Below, in pieces: positions 48,528 through 64,000 of a DNA stretch of 64,000 bases. The stretch's first letter is position 1; every line of letters begins with the position of its first letter. This stretch comes from Psychrobacter sp. P11F6. GTDB lineage: Bacteria; Pseudomonadota; Gammaproteobacteria; Pseudomonadales; Moraxellaceae. The position numbers and the translations under genes are program-made. The notes under the pieces are model-generated. The model was not told where the DNA came from. It ran no database searches and saw nothing but the letters and a program-made list of their open reading frames with translations. Where the stretch lies: the NCBI RefSeq assembly GCF_001435295.1, contig NZ_CM003594.1, positions 1,364,001 to 1,428,000 of the forward strand, given 5' to 3'.

Positions 48528-48794
48528 TTACTCTATAGTATGCTCGTGATTGATATAAATCACACCCTGTACACGACAACAGCAGGGCAGGATCTCGTCT
48601 TCATCAATCATGGCAAGGGGTGCAAACGGATAGTCAATGACGTGTGAGCTGGCGATACGCTTAATGCGGCAGCTGCCACAATAGCCTTCCTTACATTGAT
48701 AATTGATATCATGTCCGGTGCGTAGCAATCCATCAAGCAAGCTTTCGTCATCATGCAAGTAAAATTGCTTTTTACTCGTCATTACCCAAGTCAT
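48528..48794 (-). CDS. 2Fe-2S ferredoxin (YfaE-like)
   Basis: This 88-residue cytoplasmic ferredoxin has the plant-type 2Fe-2S ligands CKEGYCGSC plus a fourth cysteine in LPCCC. Like YfaE in E. coli, it is encoded downstream of nrdB and should help maintain the diiron-tyrosyl cofactor of the small ribonucleotide reductase subunit. AGGATAAGACT precedes the ATG at 48794; the ATG four codons later has no better site. Three adjacent cysteines near the end are a minor oddity. Confidence 0.9.
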   Translation of the reverse strand: MTWVMTSKKQFYLHDDESLLDGLLRTGHDINYQCKEGYCGSCRIKRIASSHVIDYPFAPLAMIDEDEILPCCCRVQGVIYINHEHTIE

Positions 48795-48986: not shown

Positions 48987-50120
48987 CTAAAGTTCAAAAT
49001 CATCAAAATCGCTGTCTGATAAATCTGAATCAATTTGACCCACCAAGTATGAGCTGATTTCTGTCTCTTGTGGGGCAACTTGCACGTTGTCAGAAGACAA
49101 CCACGTGTTAATCCACGGGATTGGGTTTGATTTAGAATTCGGGAATGCCACTGGTAAGCCAACCGCTTCCATACGTAAATTGGTGATATATTCGATATAT
49201 TGGCACAGAATGTCTTTATTGAGACCAATCATTGAGCCGTCTTTAAACAGATAGCCTGCCCATTCTTTTTCTTGCTCAGCCGCTTTACGGAATATCTCGA
49301 TGCTTTCTTCATAGCACTCTTTGGCAATGTCGACCATCTCAGGATCATCACGACCGATGCGCATGAGATTCAAAATATGCTGAGTACCCGTTAAATGTAG
49401 CGCCTCATCACGAGCAATCAATTTAATAATCTTGGCATTACCTTCCATTAACTTACGCTCGGCAAAGGCAAAAGAGCAAGCAAATGACACATAAAAGCGA
49501 ATGGCTTCTAAGACGTTGACGGCCATCAAGCACAAGTAAAGCTGCTTTTTCAGCGATTTTAAATCAACGGTAATTTGCTTACCATTGATCGTATGCGTGC
49601 CTGCACCGTATAGGTTGTATAGCGATGAGTTATAATACAAGTCATCGTAGTACTTGGCGATGTCGGCGGCGCGCTCTAAGATATGATCGTTTTGCATGAT
49701 GTCATCAAAGACGATAGCAGGGTCATTGATAATATTGCGAATGATATGGGTATAGCTGCGCGAGTGAATGGTCTCAGAAAATGTCCACGTCTCAATCCAT
49801 GTCTCAAGCTCAGGAATCGATACCAGTGGCAATAGCACCACGTTTGGGCTACGACCTTGGATAGAGTCGAGCAGCGTTTGATATTTCAGATTACTGATAA
49901 AGATATGCTGCTCATGTGAGGATAAATTGCCATAATCCATACGATCACGTGAGACATCGACTTCTTCTGGACGCCAAAAGAACGATAGCTGCTTTTCAAT
50001 CAATTGCTCAAAGATAGGGTGCTTTTGTTGGTCGTAACGCGCCACGTTGACCGGATTACCAAAAAACATCGGCTCTGTTAGCGCATTGTTTGGCGTTTGG
50101 GAAAAAATCGAATAAGTCAT
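48987..50120 (-). CDS. nrdB: Ribonucleotide reductase class Ia, beta subunit
   Basis: NrdB (377 residues) carries the diiron-tyrosyl radical cofactor that starts nucleotide reduction in NrdA. Family segments seen are [26 protein letters not shown] and the metal-ligand helix [17 protein letters not shown]; the acidic C-terminal tail [10 protein letters not shown] is the NrdA-binding peptide. It is on the same strand as nrdA, but 2.8 kb of other genes lie between them. The ferredoxin gene follows 192 bp downstream. Confidence 0.96.
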
Positions 50121-50192
50121 GGGACTGCCTTTATCATTGATATGGTTATTAAGTTATAGGGTTTTGACTAGATTTGGTTTGACTGAATTATA

Positions 50193-50576
50193 TTACAAGT
50201 TCTCTAAAGATATCTGTTCTGACGTCTGTCCATCATTCATATACGCTTTAAATATCTCACTCAGCTCACTATCGTCCAAACCCTCCAATTCATCGATCGC
50301 ACTCTTACGCAGCGCACTCAAGCCATCATCATCTGATAGTTGCTGCATTTCTTTCTGTGCGTCTTTTTTAGTCGTTCTCTTTACTGTTTTTTTCAATACT
50401 TTTGTGGCGACTTTCTTTGATGCTTCTGGTTTTGCTGCTGTGCCTTCGCCTAATTGCTCACGGACGTCTGCGATGTCGACTTCCACTTGTACGATATGCG
50501 AGCCACCATCGTTTAGGTCTGAAAATACGTTTGGGATAAACAAACCACCGTCTTTGATGATTGCGGTATATTGCAC
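50193..50576 (-). CDS. Unknown 127-aa protein upstream of nrdB
   Basis: I do not recognise this protein. It starts at a GTG (50576) with a strong GGAGG site. The N terminus (QYTAIIKDGGLFIPNVFSDL) looks like a small strand-rich fold of the kind found in antitoxin-like or DUF proteins. The centre is Lys/Ala-rich (KPEASKKVATKVLKKTVKRT), and the C terminus is acidic and helical (ALRKSAIDELEGLDDSELSE). It is 72 bp before nrdB, downstream of the RelE-like gene and on the same strand, so it could be expressed with either. Confidence 0.7.
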   Translation of the reverse strand: MQYTAIIKDGGLFIPNVFSDLNDGGSHIVQVEVDIADVREQLGEGTAAKPEASKKVATKVLKKTVKRTTKKDAQKEMQQLSDDDGLSALRKSAIDELEGLDDSELSEIFKAYMNDGQTSEQISLENL

Positions 50577-50670
50577 ATGACCTCCGTCGTTTTTATTGTT
50601 TGTGTGTTTCTATATTTCTATGATAGCGCTGGACGCTTCCTACAATGACTGTCTCAATATCTTAGCTTCA

Positions 50671-50958
50671 TCATGGCTGGCGCGTCGCAAGATTGTCATA
50701 TACTTTGTTGTTTTCTCTTTTGCCAACTGCCAATACATAAACTACCACCACATCATCTTTTACGGTGTATACCAGACGATACCCTACAGTGCGTAACTTA
50801 ATTTTATAAGTATCCGTATGTCCCGATAGTTTTGACGCAGGCACATGAGGGTTTGACAATCGCTGCTGTAATTTTTTCTTAAACTGCTGCTGAATATTTG
50901 GTGCTATCTTTTTCCACTCTTTTAATGCCAAAGGATGAAACTCAAGATTATAAGTCAT
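50671..50958 (-). CDS. relE: RelE/StbE-family toxin
   Basis: This 95-residue protein has the RelE fold signature: YNLEFHPLALKEWKKIA at the N terminus, the basic KLSGHTDTYKIKLRTVGYRLVY core and a final strand VVVVYVLAVGKREN. RelE-type toxins cleave mRNA on the ribosome. Its start overlaps the antitoxin's end by 11 bp, the usual tight coupling. The gene is on the nrd strand inside the nrdA-nrdB gap. The gene symbol is by family; it resembles the RelE of the StbDE group. Confidence 0.9.
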   Translation of the reverse strand: MTYNLEFHPLALKEWKKIAPNIQQQFKKKLQQRLSNPHVPASKLSGHTDTYKIKLRTVGYRLVYTVKDDVVVVYVLAVGKRENNKVYDNLATRQP

Positions 50959-51199
50959 CCAAACATACCTTTATCGGTATCTGCCCGTCATTTAATCGTG
51001 CGCTAACGGTTTGGCTTAATGCCATGTCGTCCATCGCTTCCATCATACGTTCGAATACGTCTGTCGAAACTAGGTAAGCCACGGGTTTGTTATGGTTTAA
51101 AATAGCAATGGACTCACCATCTGACTGTTTAATCAGTGCCGATGGGTTGGCTTTTAGTTCTGAAATACTGGCTGTCTGTGTGGCAAATATTGGTTGCAT
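50948..51199 (-). CDS. relB: Phd/YefM-type antitoxin (StbD/RelB-like)
   Basis: This 83-residue antitoxin has the Phd/YefM N-terminal DNA-binding region (ASISELKANPSALIKQSDGESIAIL, given here as one stretch across residues 12-36) and NHNKPVAYLVSTDVFERMME, followed by a toxin-wrapping C terminus. GGAG lies nine bases before the ATG. It would bind and neutralise the RelE-like toxin and repress its own promoter. It should be read as a StbD-type protein; the symbol relB is by analogy. Confidence 0.88.
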   Translation of the reverse strand: MQPIFATQTASISELKANPSALIKQSDGESIAILNHNKPVAYLVSTDVFERMMEAMDDMALSQTVSARLNDGQIPIKVCLDDL

Positions 51200-51540
51200 A
51201 ACTCATTCTCCGCTAATATTACGCTCTAAATATAGGGCTGATTTTAGCACGAAAATTAGGTCTTAATTGTTATTGTATTAAATTAAATATTTGGAGTTAG
51301 TAATTTGTAGGGTGCGCCTCGCGCACCTTTAAACTTGAACCAAAGCCCAGTATTTTGACATAGTAGGCTTAGGATATGCCTCGCGCATCTTTAAATGCAA
51401 GTTCTATATCATCGGTGCGTGGAACACACCCTGCAAAAACCGTTACGATCTAAAGGTAGATTGGTGTCGAGGCACGAGACTCAGCATATTATTCAATTAA
51501 AATCGTTGGGTGTCGCAAGCTCCACCCAACCTACGCTTGA
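51200..51540. other. Gene-free stretch with palindrome cluster
   Basis: These 341 bp lie between the antitoxin gene and the DUF6680-like gene. Most of it is a cluster of four related palindromes (51310-51534). The antitoxin promoter must lie in the first 100 bp. Confidence 0.55.
51310..51534. repeat. Cluster of four related palindromes
   Basis: Three 17-bp palindromes share a design: GGTGCGCCTCGCGCACC (51311-51327), GATATGCCTCGCGCATC (51373-51389) and GGTGCGTGGAACACACC (51414-51430). The first two also share the flank TTTAAA. A fourth, GTTGGGTG / CACCCAAC (51505-51530), ends in CTACG. The arms read like the GTAGGTTGGGTG family of intergenic repeats common in Moraxellaceae. Confidence 0.7.
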
Positions 51541-52107
51541 TTAATAAGATAGTTTATCACTCTGATTCTTAGTTTTATTTTGCGATAAACTTTCAATAGT
51601 TATTGGAATAGCTTTTTCACCGTCTAACATTTCCACCAACCCTTGAAGTAACTTGAGTTTGCTGTTCTCAATATGTTCATGGCTAATAGGTCTATACCAG
51701 TCCTTTTTAATTTGGACGTCATCGAACTCATATCCAAGATCCTGACCCATGGCGGATAACAAAGATATAAATAGATCAGTCGCTTGTTTATCCCAATTAT
51801 CTATATATTGTGACTCTGTATTTAAGTAATCTTTATATAGCTTCCATGCAATCGTAACTTTTTTCTCACTATTAGATTGTTTATGTTTTCCAAAACGGGT
51901 TTTTCCATAGAATTCTATATCTATCATATTCAATGCAGATACGTGCTCTGCGGATAATTTTATTCCACGAGTTGACATTAATACATGGAAGATACTAAGC
52001 TTTTTGTTTCTATGTTCCTTACTATATTCAAGAAGTTTTTGAATTTGCACTGCGAAGATAGGGCCAAGAAAAACAGCTAAAATCGTAACTATGTCTGTAG
52101 CATCCAT
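51541..52107 (-). CDS. DUF6680-like membrane-anchored protein
   Basis: This 188-residue protein has one N-terminal helix (MDATDIVTILAVFLGPIFAV) and a mainly alpha-helical cytoplasmic part. The segment IFHVLMSTRGIKLSAEHVSAL followed by NMIDIEFYG resembles DUF6680-type proteins of unknown function (this name is from memory). It lies between palindromic repeats in the nrdA-nrdB gap. AGGTAG precedes the ATG. Cargo-like placement suggests a role in defence or stress rather than nucleotide reduction, but this is an inference. Confidence 0.75.
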   Translation of the reverse strand: MDATDIVTILAVFLGPIFAVQIQKLLEYSKEHRNKKLSIFHVLMSTRGIKLSAEHVSALNMIDIEFYGKTRFGKHKQSNSEKKVTIAWKLYKDYLNTESQYIDNWDKQATDLFISLLSAMGQDLGYEFDDVQIKKDWYRPISHEHIENSKLKLLQGLVEMLDGEKAIPITIESLSQNKTKNQSDKLSY

Positions 52108-52144
52108 AAATCTACCTAAATAACTAAAAATTATTTTAATTATG

Positions 52145-52178
52145 GTAGGTTGGTGTCAACAAACAACGTCCAACCTAC
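52145..52178. repeat. Palindromic repeat GTAGGTTGG
   Basis: GTAGGTTGG and CCAACCTAC pair around a 16-nt loop. It matches the arm design of the repeat at 51505-51534 and lies on the other side of the DUF6680-like gene. Confidence 0.65.
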
Positions 52179-52199
52179 ACTTGCTACAACTTTAACTAT

Positions 52200-52427
52200 C
52201 TACGCTAGTCTTTTGACGTAGTTGCCTTTGACTTTTCTGCTAATATAACTATTTAAGCCATCTCCAGATTGCGCGAGTCTTTTCATCTCTTCGATATCAG
52301 TGACCCCAGTTGATGCATAGTTATACAGGTACTCTGCACCTGTTTTGAAACGCACAGTGATTGAGTCATTACTGATTTCATAAGCACTTACACCTGAATC
52401 ATTATTTAAATCACGATATGTTTCCAT
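52200..52427 (-). CDS. KTSC-domain-like small protein
   Basis: This 75-residue protein resembles the KTSC domain: VSAYEISNDSITVRFKTG followed by EYLYNYASTGVTDIE and a GLNSYISRKVKGNY tail. KTSC domains occur as short stand-alone proteins or fused to tRNA-related enzymes; their function is not settled. AGAGG precedes the ATG at 52427. It lies in the nrdA-nrdB gap on the nrd strand. Confidence 0.8.
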   Translation of the reverse strand: METYRDLNNDSGVSAYEISNDSITVRFKTGAEYLYNYASTGVTDIEEMKRLAQSGDGLNSYISRKVKGNYVKRLA

Positions 52428-52490
52428 ATACTTTTACCTCTCGTCTAAGTTTGTTTTAAAGGATGACTATTACTTCATCAATTTTCTTGG

Positions 52491-52556
52491 ACAAGTGGTA
52501 TGGTTTAAATTAGAATGACGTCTCTCTAGAGGTTATTCTATTGCCAAACCACTTGT
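52491..52556. repeat. Nested hairpin, 66 nt
   Basis: ACAAGTGGT (52491-52499) pairs with ACCACTTGT (52548-52556). Inside, TAGAAT (52511-52516) pairs with ATTCTA (52535-52540), and CTCT with AGAG. It lies between the KTSC-like and 58-aa genes. No T-run is present, so its role is unclear: a transcript end, an RNA or an integration site. Confidence 0.5.
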
Positions 52557-52644
52557 GGATGTCGATAGTCTCAACTTCCTGATATTGAATATTGGCGTAT
52601 TCAGTATCTCCGATGGCATTGGTGATTTATCATCAATGCCATTT

Positions 52645-52821
52645 TTATCTTCTACTATCTACCTCCTGTGCGACTCCTTTATAACTACCTTTCATACCAC
52701 TCATAAATTGACCTGTATTAGCATCTCTCTTAATTGAGTGTTCAGGATTACTAGGATGCTTAATCTGAGTTCGACCTGTCACTGAACCCTTTCGACTTCC
52801 ATTTCCAGTATTTTTAGCCAT
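52645..52821 (-). CDS. 58-aa conserved small protein
   Basis: This short gene is easily missed. The start ATG (52821) follows GAGG and the protein begins MAKNTGNGSRKGSVTGRTQI, continues KHPSNPEHSIKRDANTGQF and ends in AQEVDSRR. A basic, Gly/Asn-rich N terminus with the MAKNTGNG and GRTQ pattern is shared by a widespread family of small bacterial proteins of unknown function. It lies 132 bp after nrdA. Confidence 0.72.
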   Translation of the reverse strand: MAKNTGNGSRKGSVTGRTQIKHPSNPEHSIKRDANTGQFMSGMKGSYKGVAQEVDSRR

Positions 52822-52953
52822 GAGCTATTAACCTCTTTGTTTGATTAATTTGAGAAAAACCTACTTTTGTTATTGCCTTTTTACCTCCTTTGTCTGCATA
52901 AAAGTAATTATCACGCCCTCTGTATTTCAACAGAGAACGTGATACCTAGAACT

Positions 52954-55230
52954 CTAAATCTTACAAGCCCCGCCAGCACAATCATCTTCCATATCCGCTT
53001 GGGCATCGTTCGCACCATCACGCGTATTATGGTAATACAAAGTTTTCACGCCAAGCTTATACGCATTTAGCAAATCTTTTAGCAATATCTTCATCGGTAC
53101 ACGGCCGCCTTCATAACGAACGGGATCGTAGTTGGTATTGGCAGAGATACTTTGATCGACGAATTTCTGCATGACAGCGACCAGCCTTAGGTAACCGTCA
53201 TTGTTTGGCATTTGCCATAGTAGCTCGTACTGACCTTTTAGCTTATCAATCTCAGGCACGACTTGCTTTAAGATGCCGTCTTTTGACGCTTTGATAGAGA
53301 CCAGACCGCGTGGTGGCTCGATACCGTTGGTCGCATTGGCAATCTGACTAGAGGTCTCAGATGGCATCAAGGCGGTTAGGGTAGAGTTGCGCAGACCGTG
53401 AGTGGTGATTTCAGTACGCAGCCTTTCCCAATCGAGATGTAGCGGCTCTTGGCAGATTTTGTCCAAATCTTTTTTGTACGTATCAATCGGCAAGATACCT
53501 TGTGAATATGTAGTCTCATTGAAGGCAGGGCAAGCGCCTTGCTCTTTTGCCAATTTGTTTGACGCTTTCAAGAGATAAAATTGCAACGCTTCAAACGTTT
53601 GATGCGTGAGACCTAGTGCTGAGTCGTCCGAATAGCGCACGCCATTTTTCGCAAGGTAATACGCATAGTTAATCACGCCAACACCGAGCGTACGACGACG
53701 CATGCTGCCATTTTGAGCTGCTTTGACTGGATAGTCTTGATAATCGAGCAGGGCATCAAGCGCACGGACGATGAGCTCGGCTGGCTCTTCGATATCGCTG
53801 ACGTTGTCGACTTTACCTAAGTTGACCGCTGATAGCGTACAAAGGGCGATTTCGCCTTCTTCGTCATTGATGTTATCAAGTGGCTTAGTCGGTAGGGCGA
53901 TTTCCATACATAGGTTTGACTGGCGAATCGGTGCAACCGTCGCGTCAAATGGGCTATGCGTGTTGCAATGATCGACGTTTTGGATATAGATACGACCCGT
54001 ACTGGCGCGCTCTTGCATCATTAGGCTAAACAAATCAGCTGCTGGGATTTGACGGCTACGAATGCTTGGGTCATTTTCGTACTTGGTGTATAACTCTTCG
54101 AATTTGTCTTGATCTTCAAAGAACGCATCATACAAGCCAGGGGTATCACCTGGTGAAAATAGCGAGATGTCTTGACCTTTGATCAAGCGGGTGTACATCG
54201 TTTTGTTTAACTGTACGCCGTAATCCATATGACGGACACGGTTATCTTCCACGCCGCGGTTGTTTTTAAGTACCAATAATGACTCAACTTCTAAATGCCA
54301 TAGTGGGTAAAACAACGTCGCTGCACCACCACGGACGCCGCCTTGTGAGCAGCATTTCACAGCAGTTTGGAACAGTTTATAGAATGGGATACAACCCGTG
54401 TGCTGTGCTTCGCCGCCACGGATAGGGCTACCAAGGGCGCGGATGCGACCTGCATTGATACCGATACCAGCACGCTGTGACACATAGCGTACGATGGCGC
54501 TGGTGGTCGCGTTGATCGAGTCTAGGCTATCACCGCATTCAATCAATACGCATGAGCTAAACTGACGCGATGGCGTACGCACGCCTGCCATGATTGGTGT
54601 TGGTAGTGAGATTTTGAATTGCGACGTCGCATCGTAAAAACGCTTTACGTAGTCCAAACGATCTGACTTGTCATAACGGCTAAACAAACACATACCAACC
54701 AGCATGTACAAGAACTGCGGGCTTTCAAAGACGGTCTTGTTAACACGGTCTTGGACGAGGTATTTACCTGCCATTTGCTCAACAGCAGCATAAGCTAGGT
54801 TCATATCACGCCAGTGATCAAGATATGCTTCTAATTCATCAAACTCGGCACGGCTATAATCAGCTAGGATATGCTGATCGTATTTACCAGCGTCGGTCAG
54901 TTTTTTGACATGATCATAAAGGTGCGGCGGGGTGAATTTATTGTAAGCAATTTTACGCAGATGGAAAATCGCCAAACGCGCAGCCAAATACTGATAATCA
55001 GGCGTATCTTCAGAGATAAGATCTGCTGCTGACTTGATGATGGTCTCGTGAATATCGCGAGTCTTGATACCTTCATAAAACTGAATGTGCGACTTTAGCT
55101 CAACTTGCGACACAGACACATTATCCAAATTGTGAGCTGCCCACTCGATTACCTTATGAATTTTATCCAAATCAATAAGCTCTAATCGTCCGTCACGTTT
55201 GGTCACTTTGATTTTGTCGATGTGTGTCAT
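52954..55230 (-). CDS. nrdA: Ribonucleotide reductase class Ia, alpha subunit
   Basis: NrdA (758 residues) reduces ribonucleoside diphosphates to deoxy forms. It has an N-terminal ATP cone (KVTKRDGRLELIDLDKIHKV) for allosteric control, the FSSCVLIECGDS active-site cysteine region, NLCMEIALPTKP with the radical-site cysteine, and the redox cysteines of the C-terminal tail (CAGGACKI). Length and ends match E. coli NrdA. It should pair with NrdB 2.8 kb downstream. Possible NrdR boxes lie upstream. Confidence 0.97.
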   Translation of the reverse strand: MTHIDKIKVTKRDGRLELIDLDKIHKVIEWAAHNLDNVSVSQVELKSHIQFYEGIKTRDIHETIIKSAADLISEDTPDYQYLAARLAIFHLRKIAYNKFTPPHLYDHVKKLTDAGKYDQHILADYSRAEFDELEAYLDHWRDMNLAYAAVEQMAGKYLVQDRVNKTVFESPQFLYMLVGMCLFSRYDKSDRLDYVKRFYDATSQFKISLPTPIMAGVRTPSRQFSSCVLIECGDSLDSINATTSAIVRYVSQRAGIGINAGRIRALGSPIRGGEAQHTGCIPFYKLFQTAVKCCSQGGVRGGAATLFYPLWHLEVESLLVLKNNRGVEDNRVRHMDYGVQLNKTMYTRLIKGQDISLFSPGDTPGLYDAFFEDQDKFEELYTKYENDPSIRSRQIPAADLFSLMMQERASTGRIYIQNVDHCNTHSPFDATVAPIRQSNLCMEIALPTKPLDNINDEEGEIALCTLSAVNLGKVDNVSDIEEPAELIVRALDALLDYQDYPVKAAQNGSMRRRTLGVGVINYAYYLAKNGVRYSDDSALGLTHQTFEALQFYLLKASNKLAKEQGACPAFNETTYSQGILPIDTYKKDLDKICQEPLHLDWERLRTEITTHGLRNSTLTALMPSETSSQIANATNGIEPPRGLVSIKASKDGILKQVVPEIDKLKGQYELLWQMPNNDGYLRLVAVMQKFVDQSISANTNYDPVRYEGGRVPMKILLKDLLNAYKLGVKTLYYHNTRDGANDAQADMEDDCAGGACKI

Positions 55231-55755
55231 GTTGCCCTCTTAAGTTGATAACTTGGTAATTATTTATAATGTTGCTTATAGTGATGCTGCACAGTCAGTA
55301 AACGGCAGGCATTCTTTATAATGCTACGATGCTTGCGCCGCGATAGGTGTTTTTTTAGGCAAAAATCTACCGCTACTCATAGTGACAATTAAATTCACTG
55401 AGTACTACATATAGCGTGTTTGTTAGTAGGTAGGCACAATATAGCGGGAAAATTTTGAAAATACTATATTGATTTTAGCATCAAACTATGTTGCTGTGAG
55501 GTTGTGCTGTGTCCGAATTTTAGCAAAGGACGATGGGGTAAGGGTTAGACGCGATTGACTCAAATAATAAGTTTTTTGTAAAAACGGGCTGACAGTTTGC
55601 TTTTTATTCGCGAGTAAATGACCCACCAATAAGGGGACACAGAACAATAATAATGAGGGCGCAGATTGTACAGCAAACCACAAAAAATCGCCACCCGTAT
55701 GAATGACGATTTCGACGGAAAAGCGGCTGGCTTTTTTTAAACGACAATTATCTAT
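55231..55755. other. Gene-free stretch upstream of nrdA
   Basis: These 525 bp should hold the nrdA promoter. Two NrdR-box-like sites are suggested at 55404-55447. A 65-codon frame on the minus strand lacks a ribosome site and family likeness and is not called. Confidence 0.5.
55404..55447 (-). promoter_or_regulatory. Possible tandem NrdR boxes upstream of nrdA
   Basis: Two segments share ATATAGCG and resemble the NrdR consensus ACACWATATATWGT: ACTACATATAGCGT (55404-55417, 9 of 14 by my count) and GCACAATATAGCGG (55434-55447, 10 of 14). They are 30 bp apart, close to three helical turns, as in known NrdR pairs. They lie 174-217 bp upstream of nrdA, so the match is only suggestive. Confidence 0.35.
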
Positions 55756-63207: not shown

Positions 63208-64000
63208 TTAAGATTTGACGGTAACCATCTGCGCTGACTGCTCAGCTTGCTGCGCGCGTAGCCAATCATTTAATAATTGCGACTGCTTACGGACAATCGC
63301 CAGCTTGATATGATCAGGATTTTTGATGAGCTCTTGCATCTTTTTTTGCAGATGTAACTTGAGCAACTGCATCACCAAGTTTTCGATCAACTCATCCAAG
63401 CTCAAAATATTTCTGCCAATTAATGTCTTATAAAATCCGCCCCAGCTACGGCTAAGTGTCTCTTGGGTGATTGGCTTGACATTAGACAATATAAAGTGTG
63501 CGGCGGCGTTGGCATCTTTGGGTAAATGATTCAGGCAGCGTTTGATGGTGCTAACGATATCCAGCAAGGCGATATCTTGCAAATCTTCCCAAGCAAGCGG
63601 ACGCAAGATGTCAGGCGCGGCTTTTTGCTTGATGTGTGCTGGCAGCTGTAAATCATTAATACCTGCCTGCTGCCAAATGGCTTCGATAGGGTCTTCAATT
63701 AAGGCGCGTGGCTGAAACAAAAAACAAAGTTGCAATTGCTGACTGATGGTCATGTCACCATCAAAATCTACCAGCGCATCTCTTGCATCTTTATTTTGGC
63801 TACGTTTACCACCCAGCTTCTGATAGACGTCATTGTTCAGCAAATAGCGAAAGCTACTGCCTTTAGGTAATGCAGTGGTCAAGGCACGTACTTGTGACAT
63901 GAGCTTGGCTTTGCCTTCTGCCAAGGTTAAATCGTAACGCTCGCTTAAATAGGCAAAAATATACTGTGACAATGGCATGGCATTCGCGATTTGCTCACGC
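63208..64000 (-). CDS. dnaG: DNA primase DnaG, C-terminal part (partial)
   Basis: The frame is open to the right edge, so the 5' part of the gene lies outside. The visible 264 codons cover the end of the polymerase core (AMPLSQYIFAYLSERYDL, EGKAKLMSQVRALTTALPKG) and the C-terminal helicase-binding region (LDIVSTIKRCLNHLP, LSRSWGGFYKTLIGRN) that binds DnaB. An internal ATG at 63978 should not be taken as the start. The order dnaG-rpoD matches the macromolecular-synthesis operon (rpsU-dnaG-rpoD). Confidence 0.88.
   Translation of the reverse strand, partial: REQIANAMPLSQYIFAYLSERYDLTLAEGKAKLMSQVRALTTALPKGSSFRYLLNNDVYQKLGGKRSQNKDARDALVDFDGDMTISQQLQLCFLFQPRALIEDPIEAIWQQAGINDLQLPAHIKQKAAPDILRPLAWEDLQDIALLDIVSTIKRCLNHLPKDANAAAHFILSNVKPITQETLSRSWGGFYKTLIGRNILSLDELIENLVMQLLKLHLQKKMQELIKNPDHIKLAIVRKQSQLLNDWLRAQQAEQSAQMVTVKS

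Follow-up and report, generated by a model that had tools for sequence, protein, structure and literature searches.

A compact slot between nrdA and nrdB in Psychrobacter is a probable hotspot for exchangeable genes, often of predicted defence type

Our analysis highlights the interval between nrdA and nrdB, the genes for the large and small subunits of class Ia ribonucleotide reductase, as a site of rapid gene turnover in the genus Psychrobacter. The stretch examined is a 64,000-nucleotide segment of Psychrobacter sp. P11F6 (NZ_CM003594.1, positions 1,364,001 to 1,428,000; hereafter the window, with coordinates counted from its first letter), in which 2833 bp separate nrdA (52954-55230, minus strand) from nrdB (48987-50120, minus strand), both by open reading frame (ORF) calls. 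Six small ORFs lie between them, all on the minus strand, just as a sequence-only reading had proposed, and its suggestion that the site could be a hotspot with varying cargo is borne out by the 58 distinct cargo sets that we count in 94 Psychrobacter genomes. The same six genes do not recur throughout the genus, which is the outcome that the sequence-only reading had named as its refutation: the DUF6680 gene of the window is found in 4/94 intervals, its 58-aa gene in 8/94 (tblastn) and its 75-aa gene in 14/94. We therefore consider it very likely, judging from sequence comparison, that the Psychrobacter nrdA-nrdB interval is a compact hotspot flanked by core genes and filled with swappable genes that are often of predicted anti-phage-defence type. 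This reading draws on the occupancy, diversity, sharp edges, low GC content, strand bias and recurring defence-type domains that the interval displays. The slot would be laid out as one to a few cargo genes that follow the nrdA stop codon, and then a steadier tail on the right, beside nrdB, the tail being composed of a palindromic spacer, an optional Phd-RelE toxin-antitoxin pair and a gene for a 127-aa protein.

The separation of the two subunit genes is consistent across the genus. NrdA and NrdB were searched in 105 Psychrobacter genomes, each being matched in 103, and the interval set comprises the 94 genomes in which both genes lie on one contig and strand; ten genomes were excluded for having the genes on separate contigs or lacking one of them (G012, G023, G027, G035, G041, G042, G062, G074, G081 and G083), and an eleventh (G087) gave no NrdB match. 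The gap spans 204-9452 bp with a median of 2416 bp and exceeds 1 kb in 92 of the 94 intervals. At the neighbouring junctions this length is reached in none of 91 genomes between nrdB and yfaE (median 128 bp; yfaE lies downstream of nrdB at 48528-48794 in the window, YfaE NCBIfam 5.1e-22) and in one of 91 between the DUF493 gene and nrdA (median 528 bp), so the split of nrdA and nrdB is not a matter of chance. Nearly all Psychrobacter genomes carry the same core flanks, nrdA and nrdB, which is what marks a core-gene-flanked hotspot. Outside the genus, nrdA was in reach at 44 of 49 loci, and in 42 of these 44 the gap measures 15-315 bp; the exceptions are Neisseria sp. HMSC077D05 (L140, 955 bp) and N. 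bergeri (L160, 754 bp), and two other Neisseria have 315 bp. In a Moraxella metagenome-assembled genome (L157) the genes are 260 bp apart. In a family sample of 71 genomes (13 Psychrobacter and 58 others), two genera share the NrdAB subtype of Psychrobacter, and their genomes either carry the two genes on separate contigs or place them 22 kb or more from each other (6/6 genomes of g7; 10/10 genomes of g10 with both genes); the sole g14 genome has them about 0.26 kb apart, and nearly all remaining genera carry another NrdAB subtype at 23-32% identity. At the 19 loci of that other subtype that were read (L212-L230), about 0.13-1.56 kb lies between the two genes and contains small ORFs, some of which recur among members of a genus; this may be a fainter counterpart of the Psychrobacter hotspot.

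What fills the interval changes quickly. When ORFs were called and clustered, and cargo families counted for nrd-strand ORFs no shorter than 116 aa, 69 families emerged, 39 of them confined to a single genome; 92 of the 94 intervals hold cargo, and two (G038 and G078) are empty of cargo families. Among 13 close relatives whose NrdB, YfaE and DUF493 proteins are 98-100% identical there are 11 cargo sets, and because cargo differs among close relatives an old fixed arrangement is ruled out. The same figures contradict the earlier suggestion that cargo in the middle of the operon is protected from loss, since it is the slot that persists and the cargo that turns over. Cargo is also distinct in composition, with a GC content of 34.0% against 47.2% in the nrdA tail, the cargo value being the lower in 93/93 intervals; of the tail genes, also used as comparators, the 127-aa gene has 43.5% and the toxin-antitoxin pair 41.9%, both close to the 43.9% of the start of nrdB. 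Of the ORFs of at least 150 aa, 121 lie on the nrd strand and 19 on the opposite strand, the latter being accounted for by nine antisense frames over the 127-aa gene, nine ORFs in two divergent genomes (G055 and G073) and one in G015.

Domain content is the basis for the predicted link to defence. The Pfam scan covered 67 of 83 cargo representatives, 40 of them one by one and the others pooled. Single-protein matches include parts of cyclic-oligonucleotide-based antiphage signalling systems (CBASS), namely SMODS, AGS_C, ThiF, JAB, Cap15 and S_4TM, and a range of further domains: KAP NTPases, reverse transcriptase, DUF4435 with AAA, AIPR, kinase, caspase/CHAT, HNH and FRG. The pooled scans, in which the member was not assigned, add TIR, AbiH, SLATT and PIN from Pfam and the PADLOC models Drt8, AriAB, NucC, PD-T4-6, PD-T7-4, ThsB, PDC-S12, PDC-S15 and PDC-S20. 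A CBASS-like set of four genes recurs in three genomes (G004, G047 and G076). Other single-protein matches are to P63C, DUF4238, DUF2971, DUF4145 and DUF4062, and about one third of the 40 individually scanned proteins have no Pfam match at E 0.01. The cargo without explanation includes a family of 368-405 aa in seven genomes, broken in one, and a family of about 300 aa (cluster c4; L061:1073-2005 and relatives) that comes after the KTSC-like gene. Among the pairs listed, DNA similarity of the c4 gene is kept over the first ~250 nt and then diverges in many cases, as if the C-terminal part had been swapped. Taken together, defence-type cargo occurs in at least 29 of the 94 intervals, 21 by a domain of the cluster representative and eight by PDC-S38, the choice of which domains count as defence-type being our own judgement; as direct evidence is limited to these intervals, we write "often" rather than "mostly" of the defence character.

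In the window itself, the occupant as read from sequence is a PDC-S38 / weakly KTSC-like / DUF6680 cassette, with all three genes on the minus strand. The first gene, of 58 aa (52645-52821), matches the PADLOC phage-defence candidate PDC-S38 at 2.5e-15. The second, of 75 aa (52200-52427), is followed across genomes by DUF6680 or other larger genes; its KTSC assignment is weak, the window protein having no match to PF13619 at E up to 1 and one of eight relatives matching at E = 0.027. The third, of 188 aa (51541-52107), is assigned to DUF6680 by Pfam at 1.1e-53 and has, by eye, a hydrophobic N-terminus. Relatives of the DUF6680 protein at about 41% identity are found on four Vibrio plasmids and one Klebsiella plasmid. 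A plasmid origin for the whole island was considered and rejected, as window positions 50121-55300 have no megablast match in PLSDB. A search for DUF6680 in IMG/VR contigs gave four pattern matches and no confirmed one. The Yersinia phage vB_YenM_31.17 (OM140653.1:10528-11064) encodes a distant DUF6680-like protein (25% identity, 2e-11), as might be expected of an accessory or defence gene carried by phages. Guessing from context, the cassette may be a small defence of the abortive-infection type with DUF6680 as its probable effector. The gene identities first proposed from sequence stand for the DUF6680 protein, the RelE-type toxin and a 127-aa protein without family, and need amendment for the KTSC-like gene, which is weak, and for the antitoxin of the pair, for which RelB is ruled out in favour of Phd/YefM (Pfam 7.3e-14).

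Several observations weigh against the hotspot reading or narrow it. The defence share of 29/94 stands without a background rate from random Psychrobacter genes, and about two thirds of the intervals hold only cargo with DUF domains or of unknown function, where a defence role is inference. In G021 and G091 part of the window cargo is kept (the KTSC-like region, at 70%), so turnover is incomplete, and G055 (L099) and G073 (L098) carry, by reading, a TRAP-transporter-like set on the opposite strand, which is in pieces in G073. Finally, exchange through the flanks would be expected to raise nrdA 3'-end identity in pairs of genomes that share cargo, and here the figures are mixed: identity in the last bin is 90.6 against 90.4 in matched pairs, it is higher in 47 of 99 cases and label permutation gives 39/1000, in a comparison that left out ten genomes whose nrdA tails are frame-broken or of other length.

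How the slot is transcribed bears directly on whether its cargo could be tied to nucleotide supply. Directly 3' of the nrdA stop codon the window carries a terminator-like hairpin on the minus strand (52909-52944; 15 pairs, tail ATTACTTTTA), and a 14-pair palindrome after the 58-aa gene (52612-52643) is a possible two-way terminator; with the repeated element at 51308-51395, these stems partly uphold the claim that palindromes surround several of the genes. The segment 48400-55900 has ten terminator-like sites against 5.2 +/- 2.0 in shuffles. Across the genus, terminator-like sites in the first 120 nt after nrdA occur in 19/93 intervals, with 2.6 expected from shuffles, and the nearly empty site of G038 has, by eye, a strong hairpin at this place. 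Given this enrichment and the hairpin of G038, expression of the cargo does not have to depend on the nrd transcript, and in some species transcription from nrdA probably stops ahead of the cargo, in which case nrdB would need another promoter or read-through. The best promoter-like site of the region, a sigma-70-like TTGACA-18-AATAAT on the minus strand (52130-52159; 11/12 matches), lies just upstream of the DUF6680 gene; promoter-like sites in the region number 20 against 19.6 by chance, so this one is suggestive only.

These observations count against a coupling of cargo to the operon, whereby cargo would be co-transcribed with nrdAB and would rise when phage replication or damage drains deoxynucleoside triphosphates (dNTPs). 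The near-total same-strand orientation of the cargo outside G055 and G073 favours such a coupling, as would the lack of terminator-like sites in the 120 nt before nrdB (0/94, which against 0.1 expected is uninformative alone). The enriched hairpins after nrdA speak against it, and no NrdR-box-like match is found near nrdA or nrdB at up to three mismatches to the NrdR-box consensus used, and the sole match in the window is at 63484. We consider this explanation unlikely, though the strong strand bias makes some transcriptional coupling possible, and the link to dNTP supply drawn in the sequence-only reading is unsupported and still speculation. A bolder version, in which the genus-wide one-strand slot would tie the expression or release of defence to nucleotide-metabolism stress during phage attack, with the 127-aa gene as a fixed regulator or a guard that neutralises RelE, is one that we regard as decidedly improbable. 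Under the hotspot reading, the strand bias may simply mean that insertions are tolerated in the nrd orientation alone, given that nrdB is downstream.

The edges of the variable region suggest how cargo might be exchanged. On the left, blastn homology of the window to 15/15 close relatives stops at nt 601-607 of a query that begins 603 nt before the end of nrdA, nt 603 being the end of the nrdA stop codon. On the right, among the same 15 relatives, homology resumes at about 51278-51334 in those with the toxin-antitoxin pair and at about 50593-50613 in those without it. The right edge of the variable cargo is a spacer (51300-51540) whose palindromic repeat is present as two direct copies (51308-51333 and 51370-51395); relatives of this repeat occur in 58/94 intervals, and in 45 of the 53 placeable cases they precede the tail genes by no more than 433 nt; two partial copies are found elsewhere in the genome of the window. 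A 3' untranslated region (3' UTR) element after nrdA is common to 46/94 intervals with different cargo, five of these being search seeds, and among the pairs listed, genomes that share cargo have mosaic intervals. We infer that other strains and mobile pools could be the source of the cassettes, and that recombination within the conserved flanks, nrdA to the left and the tail with nrdB to the right, could exchange them although they carry no recombinase of their own.

An integrative element would offer a different route. Elements of the icd/e14 type insert at the 3' ends of conserved genes, whose sequence they restore, and an element that targeted the nrdA 3' end site-specifically in this way would leave old gene ends behind, so that the present cargo would be the remains of successive elements. 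The slot resembles such systems in having its left edge at the nrdA stop codon and in the duplicated nrdA ends of two genomes. In G010, a 145-nt nrdA 3' end with part of the 3' UTR element and its hairpin lies between two cargo genes, as though a newer cassette had entered ahead of an older one, bringing a fresh nrdA end with it, and on a plasmid-like contig of G056 (C5) nrdA is followed by other genes and then by an 87-nt nrdA end. It is unlike them in that the remnants are rare and unequal in length (145 against 87 nt), a separate nrdA copy being present in only one of the 94 intervals, that of G010, by blastn, and in that no integrase or transposase Pfam family appears among the 67/83 cargo representatives scanned. 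We hold this origin to be rather improbable. For an integron cassette array, which would require an IntI integrase and attC sites, the same representatives likewise gave no integrase match (attC structure was not examined). A further nrdA match in G075 was rejected as an extra copy, being the tail of that genome's own frame-broken nrdA.

The right-hand tail is the steadier part of the slot. Its toxin-antitoxin pair is formed in the window by an 83-aa antitoxin of Phd/YefM type (50948-51199, minus strand) and a 95-aa RelE-type toxin (50671-50958, minus strand; Pfam ParE_toxin 5e-15), and it resembles RelBE and Phd/YefM pairs in that the antitoxin gene lies upstream of the toxin gene and overlaps it. 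By sequence the toxin is closest to E. coli RelE (phmmer 2.4e-26, 95 bits), aligned over residues 1-91 of 95, with alignment of the KIKLR, GYRLVY and GKRE stretches and of a late tyrosine, all of them features taken to be catalytic in RelE toxins. The toxin is matched in 37/94 intervals (copies counted as matches whether intact or not), and the antitoxin, at more than 70% identity, in the identical set of 37. The third tail gene, encoding the 127-aa protein with an orphan-antitoxin-like C-terminus (50193-50576, minus strand), is found in 80/94 intervals; among the family genomes it occurs in 12 of the 13 Psychrobacter and in none of the 58 others, with one match per genome. Its product has no family match above the cut-off in Pfam or NCBIfam and no tblastn match in PLSDB, and its profile gave two matches to solved structures at E 1.8 and 2, which are taken as chance. 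Its last 31-32 residues, however, resemble the C-terminus of the neighbouring Phd antitoxin (blastp 1e-6; hhalign probability 91, E 1.2e-6), and on this likeness the protein is probably an orphan antitoxin or an antitoxin-derived regulator, a short shared tail being weak evidence. In the window the C-terminal part corresponds to 50193-50288, and similar antitoxin-like tails are also seen between the 127-aa gene and nrdB in four genomes (G019, G028, G076 and G101). The N-terminus may resemble AF2212/DUF104. The gene departs from RelBE and Phd/YefM pairs in sharing only the antitoxin C-terminal tail and in occurring without the toxin in many genomes.

The tail could in principle act as an addiction anchor, with the Phd-RelE pair and the orphan antitoxin-like gene holding the slot and its cargo in place, and its constant position beside nrdB, together with the wide distribution of the 127-aa gene and its antitoxin-like end, accords with that role. 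The pair is present in little over a third of intervals, however, cargo changes with or without it, and 12 of the 14 genomes that lack the 127-aa gene still hold cargo, all of which makes such an anchor very unlikely. A merely permissive intergenic region that gathers AT-rich foreign DNA, with no selection for defence, would agree with the low GC content and the many cargo genes of unknown function, but is the least probable of the explanations in view of the long intact ORFs and strong strand bias, the recurrence of the CBASS-like set and the many defence models, and the neighbouring junctions that stay short.

The hotspot reading finds its nearest counterpart in the core defence hotspots (cDHS) cDHS1 and cDHS2 of Pseudomonas aeruginosa. 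These are described as combining fixed core-gene flanks with variable content, a reduced GC content, numerous genes whose function is unknown and no single type of mobile element, with transposases as the commonest mobile genes and a size of 26 kb for cDHS1 (PMC10250203). The Psychrobacter slot shares the core flanks, the variable content, the reduced GC, the abundance of genes without known function and the absence of a single mobile-element type. It differs in that its flanks are two subunits of one enzyme, its median size is 2.4 kb rather than 26 kb, the representatives scanned contain no mobile genes where cDHS have transposases, its cargo lies nearly all on one strand with an antitoxin-type tail at one end, and it is genus-wide whereas the cDHS belong to one species. 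A literature search, at the level of search results, returned no paper on the Psychrobacter nrdA-nrdB interval.

Hotspots bounded by core genes allow new defence systems to be found by position alone, and the Psychrobacter slot is short and should be open to amplification from primers placed in nrdA and nrdB. It is also rich in families that await explanation, among them the 368-405-aa proteins, the ~300-aa proteins encoded after the KTSC-like gene, and the DUF2971, DUF4238, DUF4145 and P63C proteins. More broadly, it indicates that fast-changing cargo can separate the two subunit genes of an essential enzyme throughout a genus, which raises the testable question of how nrdB is transcribed. 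As a minor observation, G056 carries additional, divergent copies of nrdA (85%) and nrdB (84%), which lie on two contigs (C5:42400-56000 and C14:60500-70000) whose genes appear plasmid-like by reading only; its chromosomal nrdB match (C30, L037) is split in two, and a portion of the protein is absent at the break.

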